A model generated the notes under the pieces. The model was given only the letters and a program-made list of their open reading frames with translations. It had not been told where the DNA came from and ran no database searches. This document shows positions 3,251 through 44,614 of a stretch of DNA of 44,669 nucleotides, piece by piece. Each line of letters starts with the position of its first letter. Positions within the stretch are counted from its first letter, which is position 1. Made by a program: the position numbers and the translations under genes. The DNA lies in the IMG/VR virus record IMGVR_UViG_3300031565_004833, positions 1 through 44,669 of that record; one strand, given 5' to 3'. Source of the DNA: a virus.

Positions 3251-3333
<83 letters not shown>

Positions 3334-3337
3334 TTTT

Positions 3338-3411
3338 TGCCCCATAGCACAATTGGTAGATGCGTCTGATTGTTAATCAGAATGTTCCAGGTTCGATCCC
3401 TGGTGGGGCAG
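3338..3411 (+). tRNA. tRNA-Asn(GTT)
   Basis: The acceptor TGCCCCA pairs perfectly with TGGGGCA, and the discriminator is G, as usual for Asn. The anticodon stem is TCTGA/TCAGA with loop TTGTTAA (anticodon GTT). The T arm is CCAGG/CCTGG around TTCGATC, and the D loop contains the conserved GG. No CCA is encoded. Only four bases separate it from tRNA-Gly, so the two are probably processed from one precursor. Confidence 0.9.
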
Positions 3412-3428
3412 TTCGGAGGCCGACGCAA

Positions 3429-3500
3429 GCCACGGTGGCAGAATGTTTATGCACCGCTTTTGTAAAGCGGATTATGTGGGTTAGATTCCCACCCGTGGCT
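3429..3500 (+). tRNA. tRNA-Thr(TGT)
   Basis: The acceptor GCCACGG pairs perfectly with CCGTGGC. The anticodon stem is CCGCT/AGCGG with loop TTTGTAA (anticodon TGT). The T arm is GTGGG/CCCAC around TTAGATT, with A where the loop usually has C. The discriminator is T and no CCA is encoded. AAC/ACA-type codons are frequent in these AT-rich genes, which fits a phage supplementing a GC-richer host, but codon counts were not computed. Confidence 0.88.
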
Positions 3501-3517
3501 CTTTTATGGAGAATAAT

Positions 3518-4737: not shown

Positions 4738-5633
4738 TGGCTAATTACGGAAGACCCTCTACATTTGATGATATTGTTGGACAATCAGAAGTCATCAGAC
4801 GCTTAAAAATAAATTCTAAGGGATGCAAAATCTCTGGCACTGTGATGCCTCATGTTTTAATAGACGGGCCTCCTGGGCTTGGTAAGACCACTCTTGCTGG
4901 TGCTATTGCCAACGAACTAGATGTTGATTTGGTAACATGCAACGCAGCCAGTTTAAGAAGTATCAAAAGTATAATTCCTTATCTCATGGGAATAAATCCA
5001 AGAGCAGTATTGTTTATTGATGAAATTCACAGGCTTCCAAAACTTGTTGAAGAATTTCTTTATCCTGTGATGGAAGATTTTAAAATGAGTATTGTTGTAG
5101 AAGAAAATACAGAGGAAATAGAGATTCCACAATTTACTTTAGTAGGAGCAACAACAAGTGGAGGTTCATTATCTCAACCTTTTTATGATCGGTTTACAAT
5201 CAAAGAGCATTTATCTTTCTATACCGAAATTGAATTAGCTAAACTAGCAGGGTTTGCGATAAAAGCTGGGGCTCTGGAGATTGATGACTCTGATCTTTTA
5301 GAAATTGCAAAGAGAAGCAAAGGAACTCCTAGAATTCTAAAAGCAAGAGTAAAATGGTATGAAAACTATGTACTTACTATGGGTAAAGATAATGTGGACA
5401 CTATTTTTGAAACTCAGGGTATTGACAAATACGGAATGGATGTGTATGATAGAAAGTACCTAGAAGTTCTAGAGAAAAATTTGGGCAATCCTTTAGGGCT
5501 TAAAAGTATTAGTTCTCTTACAGGAATTGCAATAGAGACTATTGAGAATGCTATTGAGCCCTATCTTTTGAGAGAAGGTTATGTAGTTAGAACACAAAAA
5601 GGAAGAATACTTGGTAAAGTAAGAAGAAAATAG
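4737..5633 (+). CDS. ruvB: RuvB-like Holliday junction branch migration ATPase
   Basis: A 298-residue AAA+ protein with RuvB features in order. RPSTFDDIVGQ is near the N-terminus. Walker A is GPPGLGKTT (about 44-52), and Walker B is FIDEIH (about 92-97). The RuvA-contacting beta-hairpin region ends in IPQFTLVGATT (sensor 1). The arginine finger is in YDRF (about 153) and sensor 2 in GTPRI. A C-terminal winged helix contains NPLGLKSISSLTG and ends with YVVRTQKGRI. RuvB hexamers pump DNA through a RuvA-bound Holliday junction. It is somewhat shorter than E. coli RuvB (336 residues). No full RuvA or RuvC is seen here; the neighbouring zinc-ribbon protein may take the RuvA role. Its stop codon overlaps the first base of the tmRNA. 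Confidence 0.93.
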   Translation: MANYGRPSTFDDIVGQSEVIRRLKINSKGCKISGTVMPHVLIDGPPGLGKTTLAGAIANELDVDLVTCNAASLRSIKSIIPYLMGINPRAVLFIDEIHRLPKLVEEFLYPVMEDFKMSIVVEENTEEIEIPQFTLVGATTSGGSLSQPFYDRFTIKEHLSFYTEIELAKLAGFAIKAGALEIDDSDLLEIAKRSKGTPRILKARVKWYENYVLTMGKDNVDTIFETQGIDKYGMDVYDRKYLEVLEKNLGNPLGLKSISSLTGIAIETIENAIEPYLLREGYVVRTQKGRILGKVRRK

Positions 5634-5986
5634 GGGGCGTAACGGTATCGACAGATAAAAAGAAATATTTGATGCAAGTAGTAGTTGGTCTGGAGGCTAC
5701 TTAAAAACCAGACCAAAAGTGTTAAATGGCACAACTCCATTTGCTCTCGCTGCTTAATTAAAAAGCAGTGACAATCTTAGGAACCGTTGGAGGTAGGGTC
5801 CAAAAGATTGTTGTAAAATCCTCTTGCTCCTATCATAATCAACGGGTGGTAGGCTAAGACTTAGTTGATCGGATTGGTGATTGTTGTTTGTTCTTTATCC
5901 AATCTTAAATAATATGAACAGACTAAACTTGTAGATTCTAATATGGGCATTTATACTGGACAGGGGTTCGACTCCCCTCGCCTCCA
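5633..5986 (+). ncRNA. ssrA: Transfer-messenger RNA (tmRNA)
   Basis: The tRNA-like ends pair as GGGGGCG (5633-5639) with CGCCTCC (5979-5985). The T arm is AGGGG/CCCCT around TTCGACT, and a GGTATCGAC segment follows the 5' acceptor strand as in other tmRNAs. The tag reading frame (5725-5757) encodes NGTTPFALAA followed by TAA, ending in the hydrophobic ALAA degron typical of SsrA tags. tmRNA with SmpB rescues stalled ribosomes and marks the nascent chain for proteolysis. This is a conventional one-piece form; no CCA is encoded. The first base is also the last base of the ruvB stop codon. The exact resume codon (AAT or GGC) is uncertain. Confidence 0.93.
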
Positions 5987-12092: not shown

Positions 12093-13250
12093 ATGAAAAT
12101 TATTAACGAACTAAAACTTGATTTTGACGATGTTCTCATTAAGCCTAAAAGATCTTTCGTTAGCAGTAGATCAGAAGTACAATTAGAAAGAGAATTTTAT
12201 TTTCCTTATTCTAAGAAATCATTAGAGTGTATTCCTGTAATGGCAGCGAATATGGACACTACTGGTAGTCTATATATGGCTCAAACATTAGGATTTTACA
12301 ATTCCATAACCTGTCTGCATAAACACTATGAGATCGAAGATTATCTTAATCTTTATCGTAATTACAAGTTTAATAAGGATCTTGTTTTTCTTTCAACTGG
12401 AACTAGTAATAATGATTTTGAGAAGTTGTCGGCAACGATTGAAAGTATTCAAGCATTAGTTGCTCCGGTTGGGAAGTTTCACAAATTTACTCCAAATATT
12501 TGTGTAGATGTAGCAAATGGATATACAGAACAATTTGTGAGAAACCTAGAAAAGATTCGCAAAAATTTTAAAGACTCTATTATTATGGCCGGAAATGTAG
12601 TTAGCCCAGAAATGACAGAAGAGTTAATCATTCATGGAGGCGTTGATATAGTTAAGGTTGGTATAGGGTCGGGCAGTGTTTGCACTACTCGTTTAAAAAC
12701 GGGCGTAGGATACCCACAATTGAGCGCAGTGATGGAGTGTTCGGATGCTGCTCACGGTCTTGGTGCTCATATTTGTAGTGATGGTGGCTGTAGAACTCCC
12801 GCCGACGTTGCAAAAGCACTTGGTGCTGGGGCGGATTTTGTTATGCTTGGAAGTATGCTTGCAGGAACAAACGAATGTGATGGAGAATGGGAATACGAAT
12901 ATAAATGCGAAACCAAACCAGACAAATTAATTGATCAAGCAATAACTTGGTGGCAACCTATTGATCCAAAAAATGGTGGAGAGAAAAGAAAAAGGTCACT
13001 AAAATTTTATGGCATGAGTAGTAAAGAAGCCCAGAACAAACATCATGCAGGAATTAAGGACTATAGAACTAGCGAAGGACGATGTGTTAGTATACCCTAT
13101 AAAGGAACAGCAGATGAAGTGATTAAGGATTTATTCGGCGGATTAAGAAGCGCATGTACATATGTTGGTGCTTTTCAGATAAAAGACTTCAGCAAAAAAA
13201 CTACTTTCATTCGTGTTAACAATACTCATAATAGGATTTACGAAAAATGA
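12093..13250 (+). CDS. guaC: GMP reductase
   Basis: 385 residues with the IMPDH/GMPR barrel. The active-site loop GSGSVCTTR has the catalytic Cys at residue 197 and is followed by [11 protein letters not shown], as in E. coli GuaC. Next come [31 protein letters not shown], and a C-terminal [12 protein letters not shown]. These GuaC-specific segments and the lack of a CBS domain favour GMP reductase over IMP dehydrogenase. The enzyme turns GMP into IMP and ammonia with NADPH. Relative to E. coli GuaC there is an insertion of about 30 residues after LAGTNE. In an AT-rich phage this could shift purines from G to A. Confidence 0.92.
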
Positions 13251-21663: not shown

Positions 21664-22323
21664 ATGTTTATAGATTTCGCGATTATTAGTACTGATATCA
21701 CTACTAAAGAAGCAAAAGATCTATTAGTAGAATCTACAAAAAACAAGATTAATAGCGTAACCGTTTCATATGATTTGCTAAAATTAGCCAAAAAAATAAT
21801 TAAAAGCTCAAATATAGACATCTCTTGTTTTATTGATTTTCCTTTGGGTATATCTGACCCCGATACCAGGCAGTTAGCAGTAAAACAAGCTATTGGTGCT
21901 GGTGCTACTTCTGTAGATATTAGTATGCCTCAAAATTTAGCAGCTAATAGAAGATACGATAAGATAAGAGAGGATGTGTCTACTGTCAAAAACATATGTT
22001 TAGAAAACAATATAAAAACAAGATATATACTAGAATACAGGTCGTTTGATCATAAATGTCTTAAAAAAATTTGCGAAATATTTGATGACAATAATATAGA
22101 ATTTTGTTTTCCTTCAACTAGTTTTTTTTTAGATAATTTAAGCGACAATATTATAGCTTCATCATTTTTGCACGAAAACTCTAAAGAAATAAATATAATC
22201 TGTAGCGGTAATTTTTGGACTGAAAACCATTTCAATATAATAAACAAATCTGGAATATATGGTTTTAGAACATCGTCTATTTCTGTCTTAAAAAATTACA
22301 ATAAGTATTTGTTAAACAACTAA
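21664..22323 (+). CDS. DeoC-like protein lacking the catalytic lysine
   Basis: 219 residues with the general plan of a deoxyribose-phosphate aldolase barrel: FIDFPLGISDPDTRQLAVKQAI, GAGATSVDISMPQNLA, and a late segment ending in IYGFRTSSI, where aldolases bind phosphate. The Schiff-base Lys of DeoC (in KTST) is replaced here: FCFPSTS has Phe, at about residue 149. The second, proton-shuttling Lys is also absent. It is therefore probably not an aldolase. The same barrel may bind a sugar phosphate or serve as a structural protein. It sits beside structural genes. Confidence 0.65.
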   Translation: MFIDFAIISTDITTKEAKDLLVESTKNKINSVTVSYDLLKLAKKIIKSSNIDISCFIDFPLGISDPDTRQLAVKQAIGAGATSVDISMPQNLAANRRYDKIREDVSTVKNICLENNIKTRYILEYRSFDHKCLKKICEIFDDNNIEFCFPSTSFFLDNLSDNIIASSFLHENSKEINIICSGNFWTENHFNIINKSGIYGFRTSSISVLKNYNKYLLNN

Positions 22324-27996: not shown

Positions 27997-30189
27997 ATGT
28001 CGGCACTGCAAGAACTACAGAATTATACATTTGTCAGCAAATATGCTAGATGGATAGAAGAAAAACAACGTCGTGAAACATGGAAAGAAGCAGTCGATAG
28101 AGTTAGGAATATGATGCATACAAAATATGTAGATAACAATATTTCTGAAGAAATTGATTGGGCATATGATATAATGTATAAGAAAAAGGTTCTTGGTAGC
28201 CAAAGAGCATTGCAGTTCGGAGGTAAGCCAATTCTTGATCGCCACGCAAAAATCTATAACTGTACAAGTTCATATTGCGACCGATTAAGATTCTTCCAAG
28301 AATGTTTTTGGCTTCTACTATGTGGTAGCGGAACTGGTTTTAGCGTTCAAAAACATCATATTGAAAAGTTACCAAATCTACAACACAATCCACCTAAAGG
28401 CAAAGGCGTAAAATATGTTATCGAAGACAGTATCGAGGGTTGGGCAAACGCTCTTGGTGTGCTTCTCAGTTCTTATTTTGATAGACCTGTTGATGAGTTT
28501 GCTGAGTTTGGTAACACTTACATAGTCTTTGACTATTCAGAAATTAGAGAAAAGGGTACTCCTTTAAGTTCTGGAGTAGGAAAAGCCCCCGGCTTTGAAC
28601 CTCTCGCAAAAGGATTGGAAAAAATTAGATCACTACTTGATCGATGCATAGCCAATGGCCAAAAGAAATTAAGACCTATTGATGCTTATGATATTGTTAT
28701 GCACAGTAGTGACGCTGTATTATCCGGCGGAGTTCGTAGATCAGCATCGCTGGCATTATTTAGTCCAGATGATGAAGAAATGGCTAAGGCCAAAACAGGA
28801 AATTGGTTTATAGATAATCCACAAAGAGCAAGAAGTAATAATTCAGCTCTTTTACTTAAAGACTCAACAACTTTTGAAGAATTTCAAACGCTCATGGAAA
28901 GCGTAAAAGAGTTTGGAGAGCCAGGGTTTATATGGAGCGAGTCTAGGGACATGATTTTTAATCCTTGCGTTGAAATAGGCATGTGGCCTGTTGACGAAGA
29001 ATCTGGCAAGTCTGGTTGGCAAGGATGCAACCTATCAACAATCAATTGCTCTTCTGTAACAGACGAAAATGATTTTTATGAAAGATGTCGTGCCGCTGCT
29101 ATTATCGGTACATTACAAGCAGGATTTACAGATCTAGAATATTTAGGAGAAACCAGTGAAAAAATCTTTGAAAGAGAAGCCCTATTGGGTGTTAGTCTTA
29201 CAGGAACTATGGAAAAGCCTGATCTTGTTCTTTCAGAAAAAATATTAAGAGAAGGAGCAAAGATTGCTGTAAAAACTAATGAAGAAATTGCTAAGAAGAT
29301 AGGTATAAAACAGGCTGCTAGAGTAACCTGTTTAAAGCCAGAGGGAACATCTAGTTCTATGCTAGGCACAAGTTCTGGTATACACCCTCATCATGCCAAA
29401 AGATATATTCGTCATGTGCAAGCAAACATGCTTGAAGCACCATACGAATATTTCAAAAGCTATAACCCACAAGCATGTGAAAAAAGCAGTTGGTCAGCAA
29501 ATGATACAGATGAGGTTATTAAATTTCCTATTGAAGTGCCGGATGGTTCAAAGCTAAGAAATCAACTTCCGGCAGTAGAAATGCTTAGTGTTGTAAAACA
29601 AACACAGCAAAACTGGGTAAATAGCGGCAAAAATAAAAAACTTTGTACGCAAACTTATCTGTCTCATAATGTAAGTAATACTGTAACTGTTAAACCAGAT
29701 GAATGGGATGATGTTACAAAGTATATTTATGAGAATAGAAAATATTACGCAGGAATAAGTCTGATTCCTCAGAGTGGAGATAAAGACTATCCACAAGCTC
29801 CTTTTACAACTGTTTATACCAGCAGAGAAATAGTAAAAGAATATGGAGATGCCGCTCTATGGTGTTCTGGATTAATTGAATTAGCACTGCAATCGTTTAA
29901 TGGAAACCTATGGGCTGCGTGTGATTATGTTGCGATGAACCAGTTCAAGGATGGAGACGAAGAAAAGAAGCTTGTTTTCGTAACAAAGGTGAAAAATTTT
30001 GCTGGTAAATATTTTGATGGAGACATCAAGAAATTAACCTATTGCATGAAAGACGTATATAATTGGAAAATTTATTGTGATCTAAAAGAAAGTTTCAAAA
30101 AGGTTGATTATACCCAATTATCAGAAACGGAGGATAATACCACAGGCATAGAAGAAATTAGTTGTGCTGGCGGCGCTTGTTTAATCTAA
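27997..30189 (+). CDS. nrdJ: Class II (B12-dependent) ribonucleoside-triphosphate reductase
   Basis: 730 residues, close to the monomeric class II enzyme of Lactobacillus leichmannii in length and layout. Early thiols include YNCTSSYC (C89). The active loop NPCVEIG contains the radical Cys (C324) with Asn and Glu two residues on either side. The C-terminus ends CAGGACLI, matching the mobile Cys pair that hands over electrons. It makes dNTPs directly from NTPs with adenosylcobalamin, so no separate small subunit is needed. It would give the virus dNTPs independently of oxygen. It overlaps no neighbour; an AGGAGA site precedes it. Confidence 0.9.
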   Translation: MSALQELQNYTFVSKYARWIEEKQRRETWKEAVDRVRNMMHTKYVDNNISEEIDWAYDIMYKKKVLGSQRALQFGGKPILDRHAKIYNCTSSYCDRLRFFQECFWLLLCGSGTGFSVQKHHIEKLPNLQHNPPKGKGVKYVIEDSIEGWANALGVLLSSYFDRPVDEFAEFGNTYIVFDYSEIREKGTPLSSGVGKAPGFEPLAKGLEKIRSLLDRCIANGQKKLRPIDAYDIVMHSSDAVLSGGVRRSASLALFSPDDEEMAKAKTGNWFIDNPQRARSNNSALLLKDSTTFEEFQTLMESVKEFGEPGFIWSESRDMIFNPCVEIGMWPVDEESGKSGWQGCNLSTINCSSVTDENDFYERCRAAAIIGTLQAGFTDLEYLGETSEKIFEREALLGVSLTGTMEKPDLVLSEKILREGAKIAVKTNEEIAKKIGIKQAARVTCLKPEGTSSSMLGTSSGIHPHHAKRYIRHVQANMLEAPYEYFKSYNPQACEKSSWSANDTDEVIKFPIEVPDGSKLRNQLPAVEMLSVVKQTQQNWVNSGKNKKLCTQTYLSHNVSNTVTVKPDEWDDVTKYIYENRKYYAGISLIPQSGDKDYPQAPFTTVYTSREIVKEYGDAALWCSGLIELALQSFNGNLWAACDYVAMNQFKDGDEEKKLVFVTKVKNFAGKYFDGDIKKLTYCMKDVYNWKIYCDLKESFKKVDYTQLSETEDNTTGIEEISCAGGACLI

Positions 30190-35245: not shown

Positions 35246-36691
35246 ATGTTAAATGATCCATCAGCAGAAAGAGCGGTATTAGCAGGTATTTTTTCTTATG
35301 GGGAAAATGCGTACCTAGAAGTTTCAGACATTATCTCTGAGTCAACATTTACCATTGATAGCAATGTAATTATTTACAAGTGCTTAAAACATTTATGTGA
35401 TAAAAACTCGGAAGTAGATATAGCGTCAGTATATTCTGTTGCTGAGGAACTTGGTGTTTCCTCTATCCTAAATAAAAAACAAGAGGCCCAACATTTACGA
35501 GCAGTTGTTGATTTCCCTGTCAACTTTTCTAACATCAGAAAATTTGCTGGCAAAATTCGCAAACTTGAAATTACTAGGCTTTTAAGAAAACAACTAGAAC
35601 TAGCACAAGATAAATTATTAGAAATCAATGGTTCCGAATCTATAGGCTCCATACTAGCTGTAGCAGAAGATACGGTTTTTAACTTCACGAATTTATTAAA
35701 CGACAGCGACGAAGCCCCTCACCATATTGCATCTGATCTAGAAGAATACATCAAGGAACTAGAAGAAAACCCAATAGATCAAGTCGGTATACCTACTGGA
35801 TTTCCTATTTATGACCAATCAATAGGTGGAGGTTTGAGAAAAGGAACAGTAAATGTTATCGGCGCTAGGCCCAAAACAGGCAAAACACTATTGTCTGATA
35901 ATATGGGCTATCATATAGCCTCCAAGGGGATTCCTGTATTGAATATGGATACAGAAATGGCTAAACAAGATCATATCCATAGAGTATTAGCCATGATGAC
36001 AGAAACAGAAATTAACGATATTGAGACAGGAAAGTTTGCAGAAAACCCAGACAAACAAAGAAAAATACAGAGCGCTGTGCAACAACTAAAAAACACTAAC
36101 ATCTTTTATAAAAGCATTGCCGGAAAACCATTTGAAGACCAATTATCTATTATGAAGAGATGGCTAGTAAAAGAGGTAGGACTTAACGACGACGGAACAG
36201 CAAAAGACTGCGTAATATTCTATGATTACCTAAAACTTATGGACAGTAGCGGCATGAGCCAAGACCTTAAAGAATATCAGGTTCTTGGATTCATGATGAC
36301 ACAGTTGCACAATTTTGCGGTCAAGTTTAAAGTTCCAATCGTTGCGTTCATACAATTAAATAGAGACGGTATAACGAAAGAATCAACGGATTCAGCCAGT
36401 GGTTCCGACCGTATTATATGGTTGTGTAGCAACTTTACAATTTTCAAAAGAAAGAGCGATGAAGAAATCGCTGAAGACGGCGTATCTAACGGAAACAGAA
36501 AACTGGTTCCTCTAATAGCAAGACACGGAGGAGGCTTGGATGACAACGACTATATCAACTGCAACATGAAGGGTTGGTGTGCCAAAATTACTGAAGGTAA
36601 AACAAGATTGGAATTGGTTAACAATACTCAAAATAAAGATGAGGGTTTTATAATTGATGAAAACGATGAAAAAGCCATCCCGTTCAATTGA
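35246..36691 (+). CDS. dnaB: DnaB-like replicative helicase
   Basis: 481 residues. The N-terminal domain starts NDPSAERAVLAGIF, typical of DnaB. The RecA-type core has Walker A ARPKTGKTLLSDN, Walker B CVIFYDYLKLM, and the IQLNRDG and SGSDRIIWLCSN segments. It unwinds DNA 5' to 3' as a hexamer and binds primase. The primase gene overlaps its end, and the polymerase genes follow, so a phage replisome is organised here. Length and features agree with the family. Confidence 0.9.
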   Translation: MLNDPSAERAVLAGIFSYGENAYLEVSDIISESTFTIDSNVIIYKCLKHLCDKNSEVDIASVYSVAEELGVSSILNKKQEAQHLRAVVDFPVNFSNIRKFAGKIRKLEITRLLRKQLELAQDKLLEINGSESIGSILAVAEDTVFNFTNLLNDSDEAPHHIASDLEEYIKELEENPIDQVGIPTGFPIYDQSIGGGLRKGTVNVIGARPKTGKTLLSDNMGYHIASKGIPVLNMDTEMAKQDHIHRVLAMMTETEINDIETGKFAENPDKQRKIQSAVQQLKNTNIFYKSIAGKPFEDQLSIMKRWLVKEVGLNDDGTAKDCVIFYDYLKLMDSSGMSQDLKEYQVLGFMMTQLHNFAVKFKVPIVAFIQLNRDGITKESTDSASGSDRIIWLCSNFTIFKRKSDEEIAEDGVSNGNRKLVPLIARHGGGLDDNDYINCNMKGWCAKITEGKTRLELVNNTQNKDEGFIIDENDEKAIPFN

Positions 36692-37811
36692 TCAAAATAA
36701 GCTAAAAATTTTGTGTGATATTGCTTGTGATGATATAGATCAAATACTAGAATTTTTCAATATTGAATATAAGCATAACGGGAAAATGATAACTATGTGT
36801 TGTCCAATACACGGTGGAGATAATCCGTCTGCTGTTAATCTATATCCAGAAGGCGAAACATATAGAGGTAATTGGAAATGCAGAACTCATGGTTGTGAAA
36901 AACATTTTAAGTCATCTATTATAGGATTTGTTCGTGGCGTTTTAAGTCACCAAAAACACGATTGGGAAAAACCTGGAGATCAATTTGTAAATTTCCAAGA
37001 AGCTCTAGATTTTCTAACGTCCTTTACGAACAAAGACTTGAGCAATATACATATCTCTAATTCAGATAGAAATAAACAAACATTTACAAGCATTATCAAT
37101 TATGTAAATCAAAAACAACAAGAAGTAAAATCCAAAGTTACAAGGAACCAAATTACCAAATCTTTAGACATACCATCCGAATATTTTATTAAAAGAGGGT
37201 TTAGCAAAGAAATTTTAGAGAAATATGATGTTGGTTTATGCGACAGAGAAGGCAAGGAAATGTACCAAAGGTCTGTTGTCCCTATCTATGACAATGATCA
37301 TCAGTATATGATAGGCTGTACAGGTAGAAGTATTTTTGAAAAATGTAATAGTTGCGGTTCTTATCACAACCCAGATAAATCATGCCCATCCGCAGAATAT
37401 TCCTGGAAATTTAGTAAATGGAAACACAGTAGTGATTTTAAAAGCCAAAATACTTTGTATAACTTTTGGTTTGCCAAAGATTTTATATTAGAGTCCTCTA
37501 CAGTTATTATTGTTGAAAGCCCAGGAAATGTATGGAGACTGGAAGAAAACGGTATTCATAATAGTGTTGCTATATTTGGCTGTTCTTTAAGCGATAGACA
37601 AAAAGTCTTACTGGATAGTAGCGGAGCGATGAACCTAATTATTTTAACAGATAGTGACGAAGCAGGAAGAAAAGCTGCGGAGCAGATTAAAAATAAATGT
37701 AAGAATACATACAATGTTTATACTCCGGTAATTTCAAAATCAGATATAGGAGAAATGAATAGTGAAGAAATTGAGACAGAGATCAAAGAATTTATGGAGA
37801 AAATCGTATGA
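36657..37811 (+). CDS. dnaG: DnaG-type primase
   Basis: About 384 residues. The ATG at 36657 is taken in preference to the TTG three bases before it; a third ATG at 36666 is also possible. The N-terminal zinc region has CCPIHGGDNPSAV and CRTHGCEKHF. A second Cys set (CNSCGSYHNPDKSC) is at about 230-245. The TOPRIM domain has IIVESPGN (catalytic Glu) and ILTDSDEAG (metal-binding DxD). Primase makes RNA primers for the lagging strand and works with DnaB. It is shorter than DnaG (about 580 residues), with no clear C-terminal helicase-binding domain. Confidence 0.85.
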   Translation: MKTMKKPSRSIDQNKLKILCDIACDDIDQILEFFNIEYKHNGKMITMCCPIHGGDNPSAVNLYPEGETYRGNWKCRTHGCEKHFKSSIIGFVRGVLSHQKHDWEKPGDQFVNFQEALDFLTSFTNKDLSNIHISNSDRNKQTFTSIINYVNQKQQEVKSKVTRNQITKSLDIPSEYFIKRGFSKEILEKYDVGLCDREGKEMYQRSVVPIYDNDHQYMIGCTGRSIFEKCNSCGSYHNPDKSCPSAEYSWKFSKWKHSSDFKSQNTLYNFWFAKDFILESSTVIIVESPGNVWRLEENGIHNSVAIFGCSLSDRQKVLLDSSGAMNLIILTDSDEAGRKAAEQIKNKCKNTYNVYTPVISKSDIGEMNSEEIETEIKEFMEKIV

Positions 37812-38383
37812 CTAGAATTATTTGTTTCGCTGGCAGAAAACAGTCTGGTAAAAGCTCTTCGTGCGAGTATGTTTATCGAAAATTACAAGATAAGCGATCT
37901 GTTCAAATTTATAACTTTGCCGATCCGTTAAAACAAATATGTATTGATGTTCTTGGTTTAGCTCCAAGACAATGTTATGGTGAGGACAAATATAAAAACG
38001 AACTTGTTGATTGTCAATGGAACGGAAAGCCATTAACCGCCAGAGAAGTAATGCAAATTCTAGGCACAGATATTCTTAGAACAATGCAGAATAATGTATG
38101 GGCAGGTGCAACTATTAGAAAAATACAAAAAGACAATCCAGACGTTGCTTTAATTGGAGACTGTAGGTTTCCTAATGAAGTAGAAGCTGTTCAAAATGCT
38201 GGTGGTATTGTTATTAAGCTAGAACGATCATTGTTTTATTCAGATCATGCAAGCGAAACAGCATTGAATAAAGAACATTATAACCAAGACATTTTTGATT
38301 ATACTATCAATAATCAACATATAGAATTAGACACTAAAAACGAGATAATACTAAAATTTCTTAAAAAAGAGCACATTCTATGA
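37808..38383 (+). CDS. Deoxynucleoside monophosphate kinase
   Basis: 191 residues. The P-loop is GRKQSGKSS at about residues 8-16; FADPLKQICIDVLGL and GEDKYKNE follow, and QILGTDILRT and DCRFPNEVEAV match T4 gene 1 dNMP kinase. It phosphorylates dNMPs for the synthesis of dNTPs, together with the class II reductase and dCMP deaminase. Its stop overlaps the next start by four bases. Confidence 0.85.
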   Translation: MTRIICFAGRKQSGKSSSCEYVYRKLQDKRSVQIYNFADPLKQICIDVLGLAPRQCYGEDKYKNELVDCQWNGKPLTAREVMQILGTDILRTMQNNVWAGATIRKIQKDNPDVALIGDCRFPNEVEAVQNAGGIVIKLERSLFYSDHASETALNKEHYNQDIFDYTINNQHIELDTKNEIILKFLKKEHIL

Positions 38384-39402
38384 TAATAACATATTTAAGA
38401 AGCTCAAGTTATGGAACGCATTCTATGTGCGAGCAGCAATATTTTCTTGAATATAACCTCGGCTATAGATCACCTTCTGGCAAAAAAGCAGACAAAGGAA
38501 CTATAGTACATAAAGTTATGGAAATTCTTGCTCATATAAAAGTTTGTCAACAAAAGAAATTAGCAGTTTATGACGATGATATTATTGGTCCAATGAACCC
38601 CTATGACTATGATCTATTAGATATCGTTGAAAGAATTTATAGCTATTATACAACTAGTTTTAGTCATCACGATTGGAAGCCAGTTGATTATAGAGACTGT
38701 AAAAAATGGGTTGACAAAGCCCTAGAAATACAAAACGGTAATTTTGATCCGAGAAATCAAGAAATAGTTTGCCCCGAACAAAGATTCGACATAGAGATTA
38801 AAAAACCATGGGCATATTATGACTATGGAAATGATTTAAAAGGATATTTAGCAATAAAAGGAACCATAGATCTTATTACAAAAGCCAATGAAAACACACT
38901 AGAAATAATTGATTACAAAACCGGCAGAAGATTAGATTGGGCTACTGGAGAAGAAAAAACTTTCGGCAAACTACAAAAAGATCCGCAGTTAAGAATGTAT
39001 CATTATGCTGCTAGTATGTTATATCCAGACATAGACCATATCATTGTCAGCATATACTTTATTAACGACGGAGGTATATTTAGTATGAACTATGATAAAA
39101 AAGATTTGCAAGAAACAGAAAATATGATCAGAAAAAAGTTTGAACAAATTAAACAATGTAAAAGACCTAGATTAAGTAAGTCTTGGAAATGCACCAAACT
39201 TTGTTATTTTGGTAAAAACTTTTTCCCACAACCAGTAATAGAATATAGGGATGGTCAGGTATGTGCCAAAGGTACGCCTATGACAATGTGCGAACAAATA
39301 AGACATGCTATTGATGTGGCAGGAATTGATGTGGTTGTTGACAAATACACAGTGCCCGGCTACAATGTTGGTAAATACAAAGCCCCTGGAAGCGTAGAAT
39401 GA
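38380..39402 (+). CDS. Cas4/RecB-like PD-(D/E)XK exonuclease
   Basis: 340 residues. GTIDLI and LEIIDYKTGR carry the Asp and the Asp/Lys of PD-(D/E)XK, and QLRMYHYAA is the QxxxY motif of the RecB/Cas4 group. One Cys near the N-terminus (SMCEQQY, about residue 17) and three or four near the C-terminus (WKCTKLC at about 271-275, then C294 and C304) are placed as in the Fe-S cluster of Cas4 and AddB. Probably a 5'-3' or single-strand exonuclease feeding recombination. It overlaps DnaE by four bases. Confidence 0.8.
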   Translation: MIITYLRSSSYGTHSMCEQQYFLEYNLGYRSPSGKKADKGTIVHKVMEILAHIKVCQQKKLAVYDDDIIGPMNPYDYDLLDIVERIYSYYTTSFSHHDWKPVDYRDCKKWVDKALEIQNGNFDPRNQEIVCPEQRFDIEIKKPWAYYDYGNDLKGYLAIKGTIDLITKANENTLEIIDYKTGRRLDWATGEEKTFGKLQKDPQLRMYHYAASMLYPDIDHIIVSIYFINDGGIFSMNYDKKDLQETENMIRKKFEQIKQCKRPRLSKSWKCTKLCYFGKNFFPQPVIEYRDGQVCAKGTPMTMCEQIRHAIDVAGIDVVVDKYTVPGYNVGKYKAPGSVE

Positions 39403-41276
39403 AAAAATACATACCACTACATTGCCATACACACTACAGTTTATTGGATGGTCTTTCACAGCCAAAACACATAGCCAAGAGATGTTTAGAAATAGAGACC
39501 ACAGCTTGTGCCATTACAGATCATGGTAATATAGCTGGTCATGTCGCATTCCATAAAACAATGAAGGAAAATGGGATCAAACCAATATTAGGATGTGAAC
39601 TATACATTTGCGAACAAGATCCCTCTATTAAGACAAAAGAAAATGGTGGTTTAAGCCATATGCTTGTTTTAGCTAAAAACTACAATGGATGGATGAATTT
39701 AATAAAACTTGTTAGCGAATCCAACAAACCAGAATTTTTCTATCATAAACCAAGATTAGATCTTAAAACAATACAAAACTTTTCTAAAGACCTAATTTGT
39801 ATTACTGGTCATCTTGGTTCTAATCTAGCCACAAAAATTTGTTCAGAAAACGAGATTATTGCGGATTGGTCTAACAGTGGTATTAGGTGCGTAGAACAAC
39901 TTAAAGATATTTTTGGCAAAGACAATCTATTTCTTGAATGTCAACTTATGGACCAAGAAAATAATCCTATACAAAAAGATGTTTCTGAAGCTGTCGAATA
40001 TATAGCAAAAGAATGTAACGTAAAAGTTATCTGTACACCAGATGCTCATTATGCTAAAAAAGAAGATGCTGATGACCAAAGGATACTATTGTGCAATAAT
40101 CTAAAAACTACTCTTCCAGAAATAAGCAGAAAATTAACCGTAGGAGAAAAAGTGCCAGTCGAGTGTTTTTTTTCTTCAAACAATTTCCATATACTTTCAC
40201 AAGAAGAAGTCAATTCTCTACACAAAGAAGAACACATTGAAAATACTAATATTGTCAACGAAATGATTGAAGAATATAGTATTTTAAGCAAACCAAGACT
40301 TCCTCCCTTTCAATGTCCTGATAATCAAAATCCAGATGAATATTTGCGACAGCTATGCAGAAACGGATGGAAAGAAAAAATAGCAAATCAAGTTGATAAA
40401 AGCTTACATTCAATTTATACAGATCGAATCAAATATGAACTTGGTGTTTTGCAAGGAGCCGGGTTGTCTAGTTATTTTCTTATAGTACAGGATATAGTGA
40501 ATTATGTTAAACAAAACCAATGGCTTCCTGGTCCAGGTAGAGGAAGCGCGGCTGGTTGCCTTGTTTCTTATCTTATTAGTATCACCAGTATCGACCCTAT
40601 TAAGTATAATCTTCTCTTCGACAGGTTTTACAACGCTGGTCGCAATACTGCTGATCACATTTCAATGCCAGATATTGATGTGGATGTACCAATTGACAAG
40701 AGAGAAGATATTATTCAATATATCAAGGAAAAATACGGCAAAGATAAAGTATCACAAATGCTTACTTTTAACACAATCAAGGGTCGCGGTGCCCTAAAGG
40801 ACGTTTTAAGAGCATATGGGAATGTTAGCTTTGAAGAAATGAATAGAATCACAAAGAATATTCCAGATGAAGCTAAAATCTCTGATGAACTCCAACAAAT
40901 GAAAGAAGATACCGGGGAAGCGTCTATCATTAGATGGGCTCTTGAGAATAATCCAGATAAATTAAAAGAGTGGTGTTTTCTTGATGAACATAATCAACTA
41001 CAAGGGCCACTTGCCAAAAGATTTGAACAAGCTATTAGATTAGAAGGAACAAAATCAAATCAGAGTAAACACGCTGCTGGTATTGCCATTAGTGCTGATG
41101 CTCTTAATGAAATATGTCCTATGGTTTATGATAGTAAGAATAAACAAATGATTGCGGGTATGGAAATGCAAGACTTAGAAGCTATTGGAGTGATAAAGTT
41201 CGATATACTTGGTATTGCTATGTTAGATAAAATTATGAACATTACTAATTTACTAAAAGAAGGAGTAGAAATATGA
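39399..41276 (+). CDS. dnaE: DNA polymerase III alpha (DnaE), N-terminal part only
   Basis: 625 residues. The PHP domain starts with LHCHTHYSLLDG (metal ligands) and the palm/thumb follows with GPGRGSAAG. The first two catalytic Asp are in PDIDVD (424-429) and the third is in KFDILGI (D602), as in E. coli DnaE around residues 401-403 and 555. The protein stops 23 residues after the third Asp, before the fingers, beta-binding and OB domains, with TGA and a good ribosome site for the next gene at the end. No intein motif is visible. The rest of the enzyme must lie elsewhere or be lost; alone it should not polymerise. Confidence 0.85.
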   Translation: MKKYIPLHCHTHYSLLDGLSQPKHIAKRCLEIETTACAITDHGNIAGHVAFHKTMKENGIKPILGCELYICEQDPSIKTKENGGLSHMLVLAKNYNGWMNLIKLVSESNKPEFFYHKPRLDLKTIQNFSKDLICITGHLGSNLATKICSENEIIADWSNSGIRCVEQLKDIFGKDNLFLECQLMDQENNPIQKDVSEAVEYIAKECNVKVICTPDAHYAKKEDADDQRILLCNNLKTTLPEISRKLTVGEKVPVECFFSSNNFHILSQEEVNSLHKEEHIENTNIVNEMIEEYSILSKPRLPPFQCPDNQNPDEYLRQLCRNGWKEKIANQVDKSLHSIYTDRIKYELGVLQGAGLSSYFLIVQDIVNYVKQNQWLPGPGRGSAAGCLVSYLISITSIDPIKYNLLFDRFYNAGRNTADHISMPDIDVDVPIDKREDIIQYIKEKYGKDKVSQMLTFNTIKGRGALKDVLRAYGNVSFEEMNRITKNIPDEAKISDELQQMKEDTGEASIIRWALENNPDKLKEWCFLDEHNQLQGPLAKRFEQAIRLEGTKSNQSKHAAGIAISADALNEICPMVYDSKNKQMIAGMEMQDLEAIGVIKFDILGIAMLDKIMNITNLLKEGVEI

Positions 41277-41458
41277 AAAAAAGCGTTACTTTCGGAAGCG
41301 TTACAGTTGGACAAACTTTTGAATATAATGGAGAAGAATATACAAAAACAGATAAGGTCAAAGTAAGTTGTTGCAAGTTTATAAACGCAACATCGCTAAA
41401 TGACCCAAATAAAAAATTAGGAGTAAAAGATGGTGAAGTTGTAGAGGTATCTGAATGA
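41273..41458 (+). CDS. Small conserved-looking phage protein
   Basis: 61 residues. TFGSVTVGQTFEYNGEEYTKT, read in two halves (TFGSVTVGQTF and EYNGEEYTKT), followed by KVSCCKFINAT and VKDGEVVEV, looks like a small beta barrel. Short proteins of this type are frequent in phages; function unknown. The gene fills the space between the polymerase fragment and the exonuclease, overlapping both by four bases. Confidence 0.68.
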   Translation: MKKSVTFGSVTVGQTFEYNGEEYTKTDKVKVSCCKFINATSLNDPNKKLGVKDGEVVEVSE

Positions 41459-42138
41459 ACTATAACAAAATTTGCGTTTTTGATTTTGAAACAGATGGGG
41501 TCGATCCATTGCAATGTAGCCCTGTGCAAATCGCCGCTGTAATGGTAGACCCAATAAATTTGGAAATCATTCCTAATTCTGAATTTAACTGTAACTTCAA
41601 ACCAGAAGTTATGGAAAAAGATTCCGAATACGAATATAAAACAGATATCCTGGACTTTCATGCTAAAGTTAAGGGATGCTCTAAGGACGATGTATACAAA
41701 GAATGGAGCAATTATCCTAAACAAGGAATATCTTGGAAAATGTTTTTGGATTACTTAGACAAATATCATCTAAAAAGAAAAACGAAAAGCCAATTTTCTG
41801 CACCAATTGCTGCTGGATATAATATTTATCGCTTTGATCTTCCTATAATTAATCGGCTTAGTGTTAAGTACAAAAACACAAACAAGGAAGAGACATCCAA
41901 TATATTTTATCCTAGAGATGTTGTAGATATGATTAATTTGGTATATTATTGGTTTGGACACACTGATGAATTAAAAAGTTTCACTTTAGATTCTCTTAGA
42001 GATTATTTGGGAATAAACAAAGATGGCGCACATGATGCGATTAAGGATGTAAAAGACACCGCCGATATTTTAATTAGATTCTTAAAGCTTCATAGAAATT
42101 TATCAGAAAAAATTCAATTCAAAGGTTCTTTTAAATGA
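41455..42138 (+). CDS. DnaQ-like 3'-5' exonuclease
   Basis: 227 residues of DEDDh type: VFDFETDG (first Asp and Glu), AAGYNIYRFDLPIIN (second Asp in the expected place), and a C-terminal HDAIKDVKDTADI with the His and final Asp. Family members proofread for DnaE-type polymerases or degrade DNA. Because the DnaE here is only the N-terminal part, the exonuclease probably joins a polymerase completed from elsewhere. It overlaps the next gene by four bases. Confidence 0.85.
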   Translation: MNYNKICVFDFETDGVDPLQCSPVQIAAVMVDPINLEIIPNSEFNCNFKPEVMEKDSEYEYKTDILDFHAKVKGCSKDDVYKEWSNYPKQGISWKMFLDYLDKYHLKRKTKSQFSAPIAAGYNIYRFDLPIINRLSVKYKNTNKEETSNIFYPRDVVDMINLVYYWFGHTDELKSFTLDSLRDYLGINKDGAHDAIKDVKDTADILIRFLKLHRNLSEKIQFKGSFK

Positions 42139-42569
42139 GCAAAAAACTCGTAGCTAAAACAGTAGCCAGAACACTTGTGTATCAATTATTAATTATTTGG
42201 ACAAGTTTTACTATTGGCTTTCTTATGAATCCTGAATATTGGGGAAACAGAGCGCCGATTATACAAAGATCGGTGGATCATATTTTTGACCCAATAGTTT
42301 ATGATGATAAGGTTGAAAAGTTTCTACTAAAAATAGGTAGAACTAGACTATTTTTTGAAGTTACAGAGAATTTTGGAGGAACGAAGCCAGAATTATTTGA
42401 AATCATAAAAGACAGCGAACAGATAGAAGGAGAAGAATGGTATCATTGCGACTATCACTATGTTGATAAAGAAGGAAATCTAGATATTTACCATTATACA
42501 ACAAGAATTAAATGGAAACCTTGGGAGTTTTATTTTCCAAATCCAGAAACAAATGATTCCATAAAATAA
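42135..42569 (+). CDS. Hypothetical membrane-anchored protein
   Basis: 144 residues. The N-terminus is basic, then hydrophobic (VYQLLIIWTSFTIGFLM), then a soluble part with EEWYHCDYHYVDKEG and KWKPWEFYFPNP. The single predicted helix near the N-terminus points to a membrane anchor with an outside or inside domain. Nothing more can be said. Confidence 0.62.
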   Translation: MSKKLVAKTVARTLVYQLLIIWTSFTIGFLMNPEYWGNRAPIIQRSVDHIFDPIVYDDKVEKFLLKIGRTRLFFEVTENFGGTKPELFEIIKDSEQIEGEEWYHCDYHYVDKEGNLDIYHYTTRIKWKPWEFYFPNPETNDSIK

Positions 42570-42772
42570 GACGAGTAACCATCATCGGAAAACAAAAAAC
42601 ATAATACGGTGTAATACTTGTTGTATTTTAGCTATCGTTGCCAAAATTACCTAAGGAAACCTATTATACCTATTCATAAAGTTATTACTCCTGTTGATAA
42701 TGCCCAATTATCTAGAGTCTATATACCACATATATCAAAAAACGGAAACCTCTAAAATTAAGAAAAGTCAAA
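42570..42772 (+). other. Intergenic stretch with a GGTGTA element and a frame fragment
   Basis: This gap holds ATAATACGGTGTAATAC around 42601-42617, another GGTGTA element. From about 42617 to 42755 a frame without an ATG stays open and would encode residues such as IPIHKVITPVDNAQ and RVYIPHIS before TAA. It looks protein-like but has no start codon with a ribosome site, so it could be a decayed gene or chance. No other structure noted. Confidence 0.35.
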
Positions 42773-43537
42773 ATGAATAAAAATACATTTATATCTATGA
42801 GCACAAATTTAGGCGTTGATACTTCTATCAGCAGACAAATGTTAGTTGATAAATTTGATATAGTTCACAATAATGTAGAATGTGCGCATGATCCCGCTGA
42901 AATACTTTATTTGGCTAATTATGCTTTATACAACCAAAATATACCAGGCCCTATATTTGAATTTGGATCTTATAAAGGAGGTATGACTTGTAAACTATCT
43001 CATGTAGCAAAGCTTTTGAATAAAGAATTGATAATTTTTGATACATTTATGGGATTATTAGAAGATGCTACTTATACTAAGCAAGATAATATTAAAGACA
43101 ATTCATATATTATCAATAATTTTACAACAGGAATGTTTGCTGGTAGTATGCGAGAAGTAGACACTAACCTGAATAATTATGGGGAAATTAGTTCTTGTGG
43201 ATATTATCCTGGAGACGCTAAAGAGTCTATTCTTCAATATAATATTGATCCATTTTTAGCATTTATTGATGTTGATATTATACCAACAATGAAATATTTA
43301 ATTAAAAATCTTTGGAACAGAATCCAAAGTGGTCTAATATTTTTTCATGAATCTTGCTTAGTAGAAACAGGGCAAGAATTATATTCCGATAGTTTTAAAC
43401 AAGAACTAGGAGAAAATAATGTTTTACTAGGCCATATTTTCTATGGAACACAATACAGCTTGCCTAATACAAACTGTTTAAATTTTATAGCTAAAGAAAA
43501 TGTTCAATTGGGTCAAATTTTTCTTAATCATTTCTAA
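42773..43537 (+). CDS. SAM-dependent methyltransferase (TylF-like)
   Basis: 254 residues. The SAM-binding strand-loop is FEFGSYKGGMT, followed by LIIFDTFMGLLED with an acidic end, and the metal-site-like FLAFIDVDI. The pattern resembles macrocin O-methyltransferase (TylF) type enzymes that methylate sugars. It could modify the glycan made by the glycosyltransferase cluster in this window. Acceptor unknown. No good ribosome site is seen apart from a weak AAGAAAAG. Confidence 0.72.
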   Translation: MNKNTFISMSTNLGVDTSISRQMLVDKFDIVHNNVECAHDPAEILYLANYALYNQNIPGPIFEFGSYKGGMTCKLSHVAKLLNKELIIFDTFMGLLEDATYTKQDNIKDNSYIINNFTTGMFAGSMREVDTNLNNYGEISSCGYYPGDAKESILQYNIDPFLAFIDVDIIPTMKYLIKNLWNRIQSGLIFFHESCLVETGQELYSDSFKQELGENNVLLGHIFYGTQYSLPNTNCLNFIAKENVQLGQIFLNHF

Positions 43538-43559
43538 CACAATTCTAACATTTCTCAAC

Positions 43560-43588
43560 TTGTTTTTTCCTTGCCGACAGGGTATTAT
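43560..43588 (+). promoter_or_regulatory. Possible sigma70-type promoter for the DUF1559 gene
   Basis: TTGTTT (43560-43565) and TATTAT (43583-43588) are 17 bases apart, close to consensus (TTGACA/TATAAT) and about 45 bases before the ATG. The gap from 43538 to 43633 has no other gene. A housekeeping-type promoter would suit a gene captured from the host. Confidence 0.45.
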
Positions 43589-43633
43589 AGCATTAACAGG
43601 CTATTTTTTACTCACCTAAAACAAAGGATTATT

Positions 43634-44614
43634 ATGAATAGAAAAGGTTTTACTCTCGTTGAACTACTAGTTGTTATTGCTATCATTGGAGTTTTAGTTG
43701 GTCTTCTCCTTCCCGCTGTACAATCAGCACGAGAAGCAGCACGACGAGCAAATTGTCAGAGTAATATGCGACAATTTGGATTAGCCGCACACAATATTGA
43801 AAATGGTACGCAAAAGTTTCCAGCAGCATGTTGGACTATTGACACTGTTGATCCAAGTGTAACGCCAATTCCACCATCAGACAATAATGCTAGAACGGAA
43901 AGATCGTGGCGGGTTGACCTTCTACCATATATGGAAGAATCAGCACTAGCAGATAATTATGATAAGAATTATCATTGGTGGGCTGGACCAAACCTAGCAG
44001 TTGCACAAGCGGAAATAAAAGTGTTTCGTTGTCCATCAAACGCATATGAAAGCGATTATACACAATATCCAGACGGTCCAACAAGAGACAGTGATTCAAC
44101 AGCACCGGCACTAACTGTTTCAAAAAGATTTGGACTAACTGATTATGAAGTATTCACTGGGGTCAAAGATAAAATTTTTAATCCAGACCCATATTCAAAT
44201 AAGGGACCAGAAGCAGATGGTGCTCTCATTAAAGATCGTGTTACGCAAATGGGTCAGTTTAGAGACGGCACAAGTAAGACACTACTAATCGTAGAGTGTG
44301 CATCAAGACCTTATCTGGTTCAAGGAAGTCCAGCACTAGTGGTTGATGGCGTTGTTAATCAATGTCTAGGATGGGCTGATAGTCTTGGGCCATTCAAACT
44401 TCATCCAATTGATAAGTTTGGCAATAAGGGTGCTGCTAGGAATATGGGCGTACCATTCAATGCTACAAATAATGGGGAGGCTTTCAGTTGGCATCCAGGC
44501 GGAATGAATACTGTTCGTGCAGATGGATCAACTCATTATGTCAATGCAGAAATTGACCTAAGAGTATTTGCCGGTATGATTACTCGCTCTGGTGGAGAAG
44601 TAGTGAATGAATAA
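43634..44614 (+). CDS. DUF1559 pseudopilin-like protein
   Basis: 326 residues. It begins [19 protein letters not shown], a type IV pilin/pseudopilin N-terminal signal with the cleavage site after Gly and a conserved Glu five residues into the mature protein. The DUF1559 domain follows with [20 protein letters not shown], and the family's C-terminal signature [17 protein letters not shown]. Planctomycetes encode tens to hundreds of these proteins. The start at 43634 is chosen because of the pilin signal and an AAAGGA site; an upstream TTG is not used. Codons are less A-rich than in neighbouring genes, which suggests acquisition from a host. Confidence 0.9.

Follow-up and report, generated by a model that had tools for sequence, protein, structure and literature searches.

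Nucleotide selection is driven by the movement of the fingers on the palm, and in cellular replicases both domains belong to one chain. The viral locus described here raises the question of what a DnaE polymerase could do when its reading frame closes at the boundary between the two. The DNA analysed (“the window”) is the whole of IMG/VR record IMGVR_UViG_3300031565_004833, a contig of 44,669 nt that is linear and therefore may be a fragment. In this report, we find that the product of the gene at 39399..41276 (+) is very probably the N-terminal subunit of a two-gene family C replicase, the C-terminal subunit being encoded downstream and associating with it non-covalently. A first-pass annotation of the window had raised the idea of a split polymerase; the comparative data presented below support the split, from which we infer assembly in trans.

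The N-terminal half and its stop

The 625-amino-acid product of 39399..41276 comprises PHP, palm, and thumb domains, as judged from the open reading frame, Pfam matches, the alignment of relatives, and a structural model. The Pfam PHP domain is complete (residues 7-182, E = 1.1e-37), and the DNA_pol3_alpha match (residues 314-605, E = 1.2e-73) covers all 260 profile positions. The catalytic DxD of the palm (D425 and D427 in PDIDVD; 40671..40679, +) and the third catalytic aspartate (D602 in FDILG; 41202..41204, +) were located by alignment and confirmed in the codons of the window; in the alignment of relatives, they correspond to D401, D403, and D555 of E. coli DnaE. Neither this triad nor the GPGRGSA motif varies among 27 members of the family. 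Also invariant in these 27 are nine positions of the PHP domain (H8, H10, D17, H42, E67, H87, H138, D215, and H217 in the window) that we take, from knowledge of the family, to be metal ligands of the Taq type; the conservation suggests that the PHP domain may be active. The N-terminal portion of a family C polymerase, i.e. the PHP and palm (NTase) domains with three catalytic aspartates, is thus in place. No fingers, HhH, or OB domain was matched in this product by the Pfam search.

The stop codon falls 23 residues past D602 and shares an ATGA with the start of the next gene. The first-pass annotation was therefore accurate in its description of the protein: the PHP domain, the three aspartates, the nearby stop, the missing fingers and OB parts, and the tight downstream overlap are all as it stated. 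Its view that the stop is no simple frameshift is also borne out. A first scan of viral contigs with the N half retrieved 65 relatives, and a second scan with the C half enlarged the set. Of the 65, 62 have a complete N-half gene whose stop varies in position by only a few residues, at identities of 50-83%; in two of the remaining three the copy runs off the contig, and in the third (contig L061) a split intein interrupts the gene. In the enlarged set, the closed N-half frames (n = 143) end 0-6 residues past the last aligned residue.

AlphaFold models of the two halves have mean pLDDT values of 78.5 and 84.4, and the best match of each in the Protein Data Bank is Pol III alpha, with best TM-scores (on the query) of 0.62 and 0.53. 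These moderate scores may reflect free domain orientations in the isolated halves. Where dS could be estimated, pairwise dN/dS is about 0.01-0.07, with dS near saturation, and both halves are under purifying selection. In the N tree and in the C tree alike, the family is a single clade with full support and a long stem. Its closest match among 50,697 phage records has 35% identity, and thus no close cultured relative exists in that collection.

The C-terminal half and the genes between

The first-pass annotation had proposed a search for a C-terminal DnaE piece beginning near residue 580 of the E. coli protein. In the relatives, this search was positive. Both halves are present in 134 loci, of which 15 had been fetched twice; the resulting 119 distinct contigs comprise 118 viral contigs and one contig from a metagenome-assembled genome (MAG). 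A separate C half on the same strand is found in every distinct contig that extends far enough past the N half (119/119). Many of these contigs are close relatives, so they represent one old, stable arrangement and not 119 independent events. No fused DnaE gene occurs in the 145 loci examined, and the single polypeptide that forms part of the usual family C definition is thus absent from this family.

In the relatives, the C half is a protein of about 535 amino acids, consisting of a variable leader followed by the fingers, HhH, and OB domains; the parts missing from the N half are supplied there by a separate gene, which in the case of the window would lie beyond its end. Of 30 records, 28 gave a match to the fingers (PF17657) and 27 a match to HhH (PF14579) above its cut-off. 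Fingers are missing only from the window and the contig of L002, both of which end too early. The OB matches lie near the Pfam cut-off of 27 (27.7, 25.5, and 25.1). According to the alignment of relatives, E. coli DnaE residues 576-578 are the last to be covered by the N half and residues 577-579 the first covered by the C half, which places the break in the inter-domain loop that connects the final helix of the palm to the fingers.

The order of genes around the break is equally consistent. Every one of the 134 loci with both halves has a gene for a DnaQ-like exonuclease in the interval, and in 124 of them the C half is followed by a gene for SSB. The distance from the N-half stop to the open frame of the C half is 800-900 bp in 126 of the 134. 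The pairwise distances of the N and C halves are strongly correlated (r = 0.97, 83 distinct pairs), which demonstrates co-inheritance, although linked genes are expected to correlate even without contact; those of the polymerase halves and the exonuclease give r = 0.95-0.97.

In the window, the N half is followed by a small conserved frame of 61 amino acids and no known family (41273..41458, +), the start of which forms the ATGA overlap, and then by the DnaQ-like (RNase_T) 3'-5' exonuclease (41455..42138, +). The DEDDh residues of the latter (D10, E12, D128, H193, and D198) are invariant in eight members, and its PHROG annotation reads “DNA polymerase exonuclease subunit”. Next come genes inserted in the window's clade (42135..44614, +), namely a 144-amino-acid frame, a TylF-like methyltransferase, and a DUF1559/N_methyl protein. 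Only the contig end (44615..44669) lies beyond. The contig closes 3.4 kb past the N-half stop, whereas in L004, L006, and L008, the members of this clade, the N-half stop and the C half are 3.4-4.5 kb apart because extra genes, including DUF1559 and ThyX, have been inserted. The gene order of the window matches theirs up to the DUF1559 gene, where the contig stops. By analogy, the window's own C half probably lies just past the contig end, about 1 kb beyond it and outside the sequenced DNA. An exact-match search of the viral contigs with the end sequence returned no overlapping contig. The DUF1559/N_methyl gene in this cluster (window 43571-44614; L004:13978-14961; L006:14097-15080; L008:13175-14248) is pseudopilin-like. 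Such genes are abundant in Planctomycetes and would hint at the host.

Upstream of the N half is a replication block (35246..39402, +) made up of a DnaB-like helicase recognized by family match (35246-36691), a Toprim primase-like protein (ending at 37811), a dNMP kinase (37808-38383), and a PD-(D/E)XK nuclease (38380-39402), all on the plus strand. The full order of the cluster is therefore helicase, primase-like protein, dNMP kinase, nuclease, N half, small frame, exonuclease, and then C half and SSB. No family A or B polymerase was found in 13 relatives of 113-231 kb (incomplete contigs), and PF00136 had no match in 14 records. Most simply, the N and C halves together would constitute the phage replicase, with the exonuclease as its proofreader. 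A search for a DnaN-type clamp found none, and at the position where E. coli DnaE binds its clamp the alignment of relatives shows no clear binding motif; the source of processivity may thus be the host clamp, a clamp of some other type, or neither of the two.

These observations suggest how such an enzyme could be built. The N subunit (PHP, palm, and thumb) would hold the whole catalytic triad, with the fingers, HhH, and OB domains carried on a second chain. Both chains and the DnaQ-like exonuclease would be made from one gene cluster, and the chains would most likely associate non-covalently, the fingers docking on the palm as they do in intact DnaE. The exonuclease would presumably work together with the N + C complex. 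The succession palm, exonuclease, fingers within one cluster implies that the enzyme may assemble during translation.

One chain, one half, or a broken gene?

An important question is whether the two halves are joined after all. An undetected intron that includes the exonuclease region, protein trans-splicing, or a ribosomal jump could each restore a single DnaE chain, and split inteins do occur at other sites in this family, in the N half of L061 and the C halves of L006 and L044. We nevertheless regard such joining as quite improbable. The few residues that follow the palm in the N half leave no room for an N-intein. An intein at the palm-fingers junction was sought in the relatives, at the N end and in the C-half leader, and was not found; given the 0-6 residues after the aligned N end and a leader that is short, variable (usually with a CGC motif), and sometimes absent, it can be ruled out there. 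A search against Rfam matched no intron in L004, L023, L046, or the window. The gap varies in both length and gene content, and the conserved exonuclease within it has kept its active site. Further, the C half has an ATG of its own, which frequently overlaps the stop codon of the exonuclease gene; the Shine-Dalgarno signals at these starts are weak. The proposal of a split family C polymerase without an intein, made in the first-pass annotation, thus agrees with the intein-free junction and the separate C half found in the relatives.

The inteins at the other sites deserve a brief description. In L061 (9980-12322), the N-half gene is cut at PGPGRG|S by apparent split-intein pieces, one of about 90 amino acids beginning with C and one of about 36 amino acids ending in HN before the S, with no endonuclease gene between them. 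In L006 (15928-18850) and L044 (12724-15677), it is the C-half gene that is interrupted, at FNK|SHS, again by pieces resembling a split intein. The gene between the L006 pieces is endonuclease-like and that in L044 is LAGLIDADG-like by eye, an arrangement that resembles “fractured genes”.

The N half might instead work alone, outside any polymerase, for example as a PHP nuclease or as the PHP phosphoesterase that the first-pass annotation had offered as an alternative. The conservation of all nine PHP ligand positions is compatible with such a role. We consider it highly improbable, because the palm triad is invariant, as is GPGRGSA, and a matching C half always accompanies the N half; in addition, no other polymerase was found in the large relatives. 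The same results speak against one outcome that the annotation had named as fatal to the split, in which no C half would exist and another polymerase would be present: the relatives have the C half, and no family A or B polymerase was found in the 13 large ones.

There is practically no chance that a sequencing error (the other outcome so named), a frameshift, a pseudogene, or a misassembly produced the short frame, for although metagenomic contigs do carry errors and some phage dnaE frames are so broken (possibly that of MT838320), the same stop recurs across dozens of independently assembled contigs, some as little as 50% identical, both halves are under purifying selection, and the overlap with the next gene is tight.

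Relation to other divided polymerases

The proposed two-subunit family C replicase, with its separate C chain, is best understood beside the systems that it resembles. Bacterial DnaE (Pol III alpha; E. coli 2HNH, T. aquaticus 2HPI) has the same domains in the same order and provides the best matches in sequence and fold. The phage family differs in having two genes with an exonuclease gene in the gap, and it lacks the tau-binding C-terminal domain of the E. coli protein, the alignment ending near residue 1055 of 1160. In cyanobacteria, dnaE also occupies two genes, but the halves are joined by an intein (PMC3919608), and none is present at the phage family's break. Intein-split and fragmented sequences are mentioned in the same report (PMC3919608), and a split family B polymerase with an intein is described in PMC6892783.

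In the openly licensed literature, the only split phage Pol III alpha that we found is that of Iyer et al. 2021 (PMC7824862); PMC12926913, PMC6892783, and PMC8026635 contained nothing relevant. Those authors described a minimal Pol III alpha in group 2.2 jumbo phages that is encoded by two genes, is free of inteins, and is thought to reassemble. That enzyme has no PHP or other domains, is cut between its NTP-binding and Mg-binding parts, is encoded by genes that lie far apart, and occurs alongside a family B polymerase (PMC7824862). The present family, by contrast, has the PHP domain, is cut after the third aspartate, and yielded no PF00136 match in the 14 records noted above; it does not belong to that type.

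Closer parallels exist among phage isolates. In Rossellomorea phage phiT1 (gp20/gp18) and Corynebacterium phage P1201 (gp59/gp58), the break is at the same palm-fingers loop, but their N halves are only about 27-34% identical to those described here, and no exonuclease gene is annotated in the gap, which holds a 49-amino-acid frame in phiT1 and vanishes in P1201, where the genes overlap. The AAGGAGG that precedes the GTG start of P1201 gp58 argues for a real gene start and against a sequencing error. A tree test on the C half was compatible with a common origin with the phiT1 split (p-AU = 0.515). The actinophages MacGully, Terapin, Cybele, and Onyinye also have a two-gene DnaE, but it is cut between PHP and palm and not between palm and fingers. 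Many DnaE proteins of the sampled phage isolates are encoded by single genes.

Split phage Pol III alpha of other kinds is therefore already known, and in phiT1 and P1201 even this loop is the site of the break. What appears to be new, on sequence grounds, is a conserved palm-fingers split that retains the PHP and accessory domains, that is the apparent sole replicase of a widespread phage group, and that has a proofreader gene in the gap. We favor, by a little over even chances, the broader view that these contigs represent an uncultured lineage of large phages with an obligate two-chain replicase (three-chain with the exonuclease), maybe assembled co-translationally, and that the loop, opened independently elsewhere, is a natural breakpoint of the enzyme. 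If this is true, non-covalent docking suffices for a bacterial-type replicase. The family would then offer a natural two-piece system for the study of fingers-palm coupling and proofreading, as well as a model for a switchable split polymerase. It would also explain “truncated DnaE” calls in viral metagenomes.

Several smaller observations accompany these results. The DnaE reading frame is divided just before the catalytic DxD, at a point equivalent to window residues ~415-425, in three unrelated isolates, Bacillus phage Jayan (L280), Lactobacillus phage Maenad (L281), and Cellulophaga phage phiST (L283). KLEB27-3 was considered as a further case and rejected; its break is inside the fingers, beside an HNH gene, and is more like an intron or intein insertion. 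Elsewhere in the window are a tmRNA (5633-5986; tag GTTPFALAA), three tRNAs (3263-3501), and genes that, by eye from their translations, encode an IMP dehydrogenase-like protein (12093-13250), a ribonucleotide reductase (27997-30189), and a deoxyribose-phosphate aldolase-like protein (21664-22323). Finally, the same split DnaE with an exonuclease between the halves is present in a 15-kb contig (L121, JABXKB010000087.1) of a MAG named Lokiarchaeota; this may be a mis-binned phage contig.
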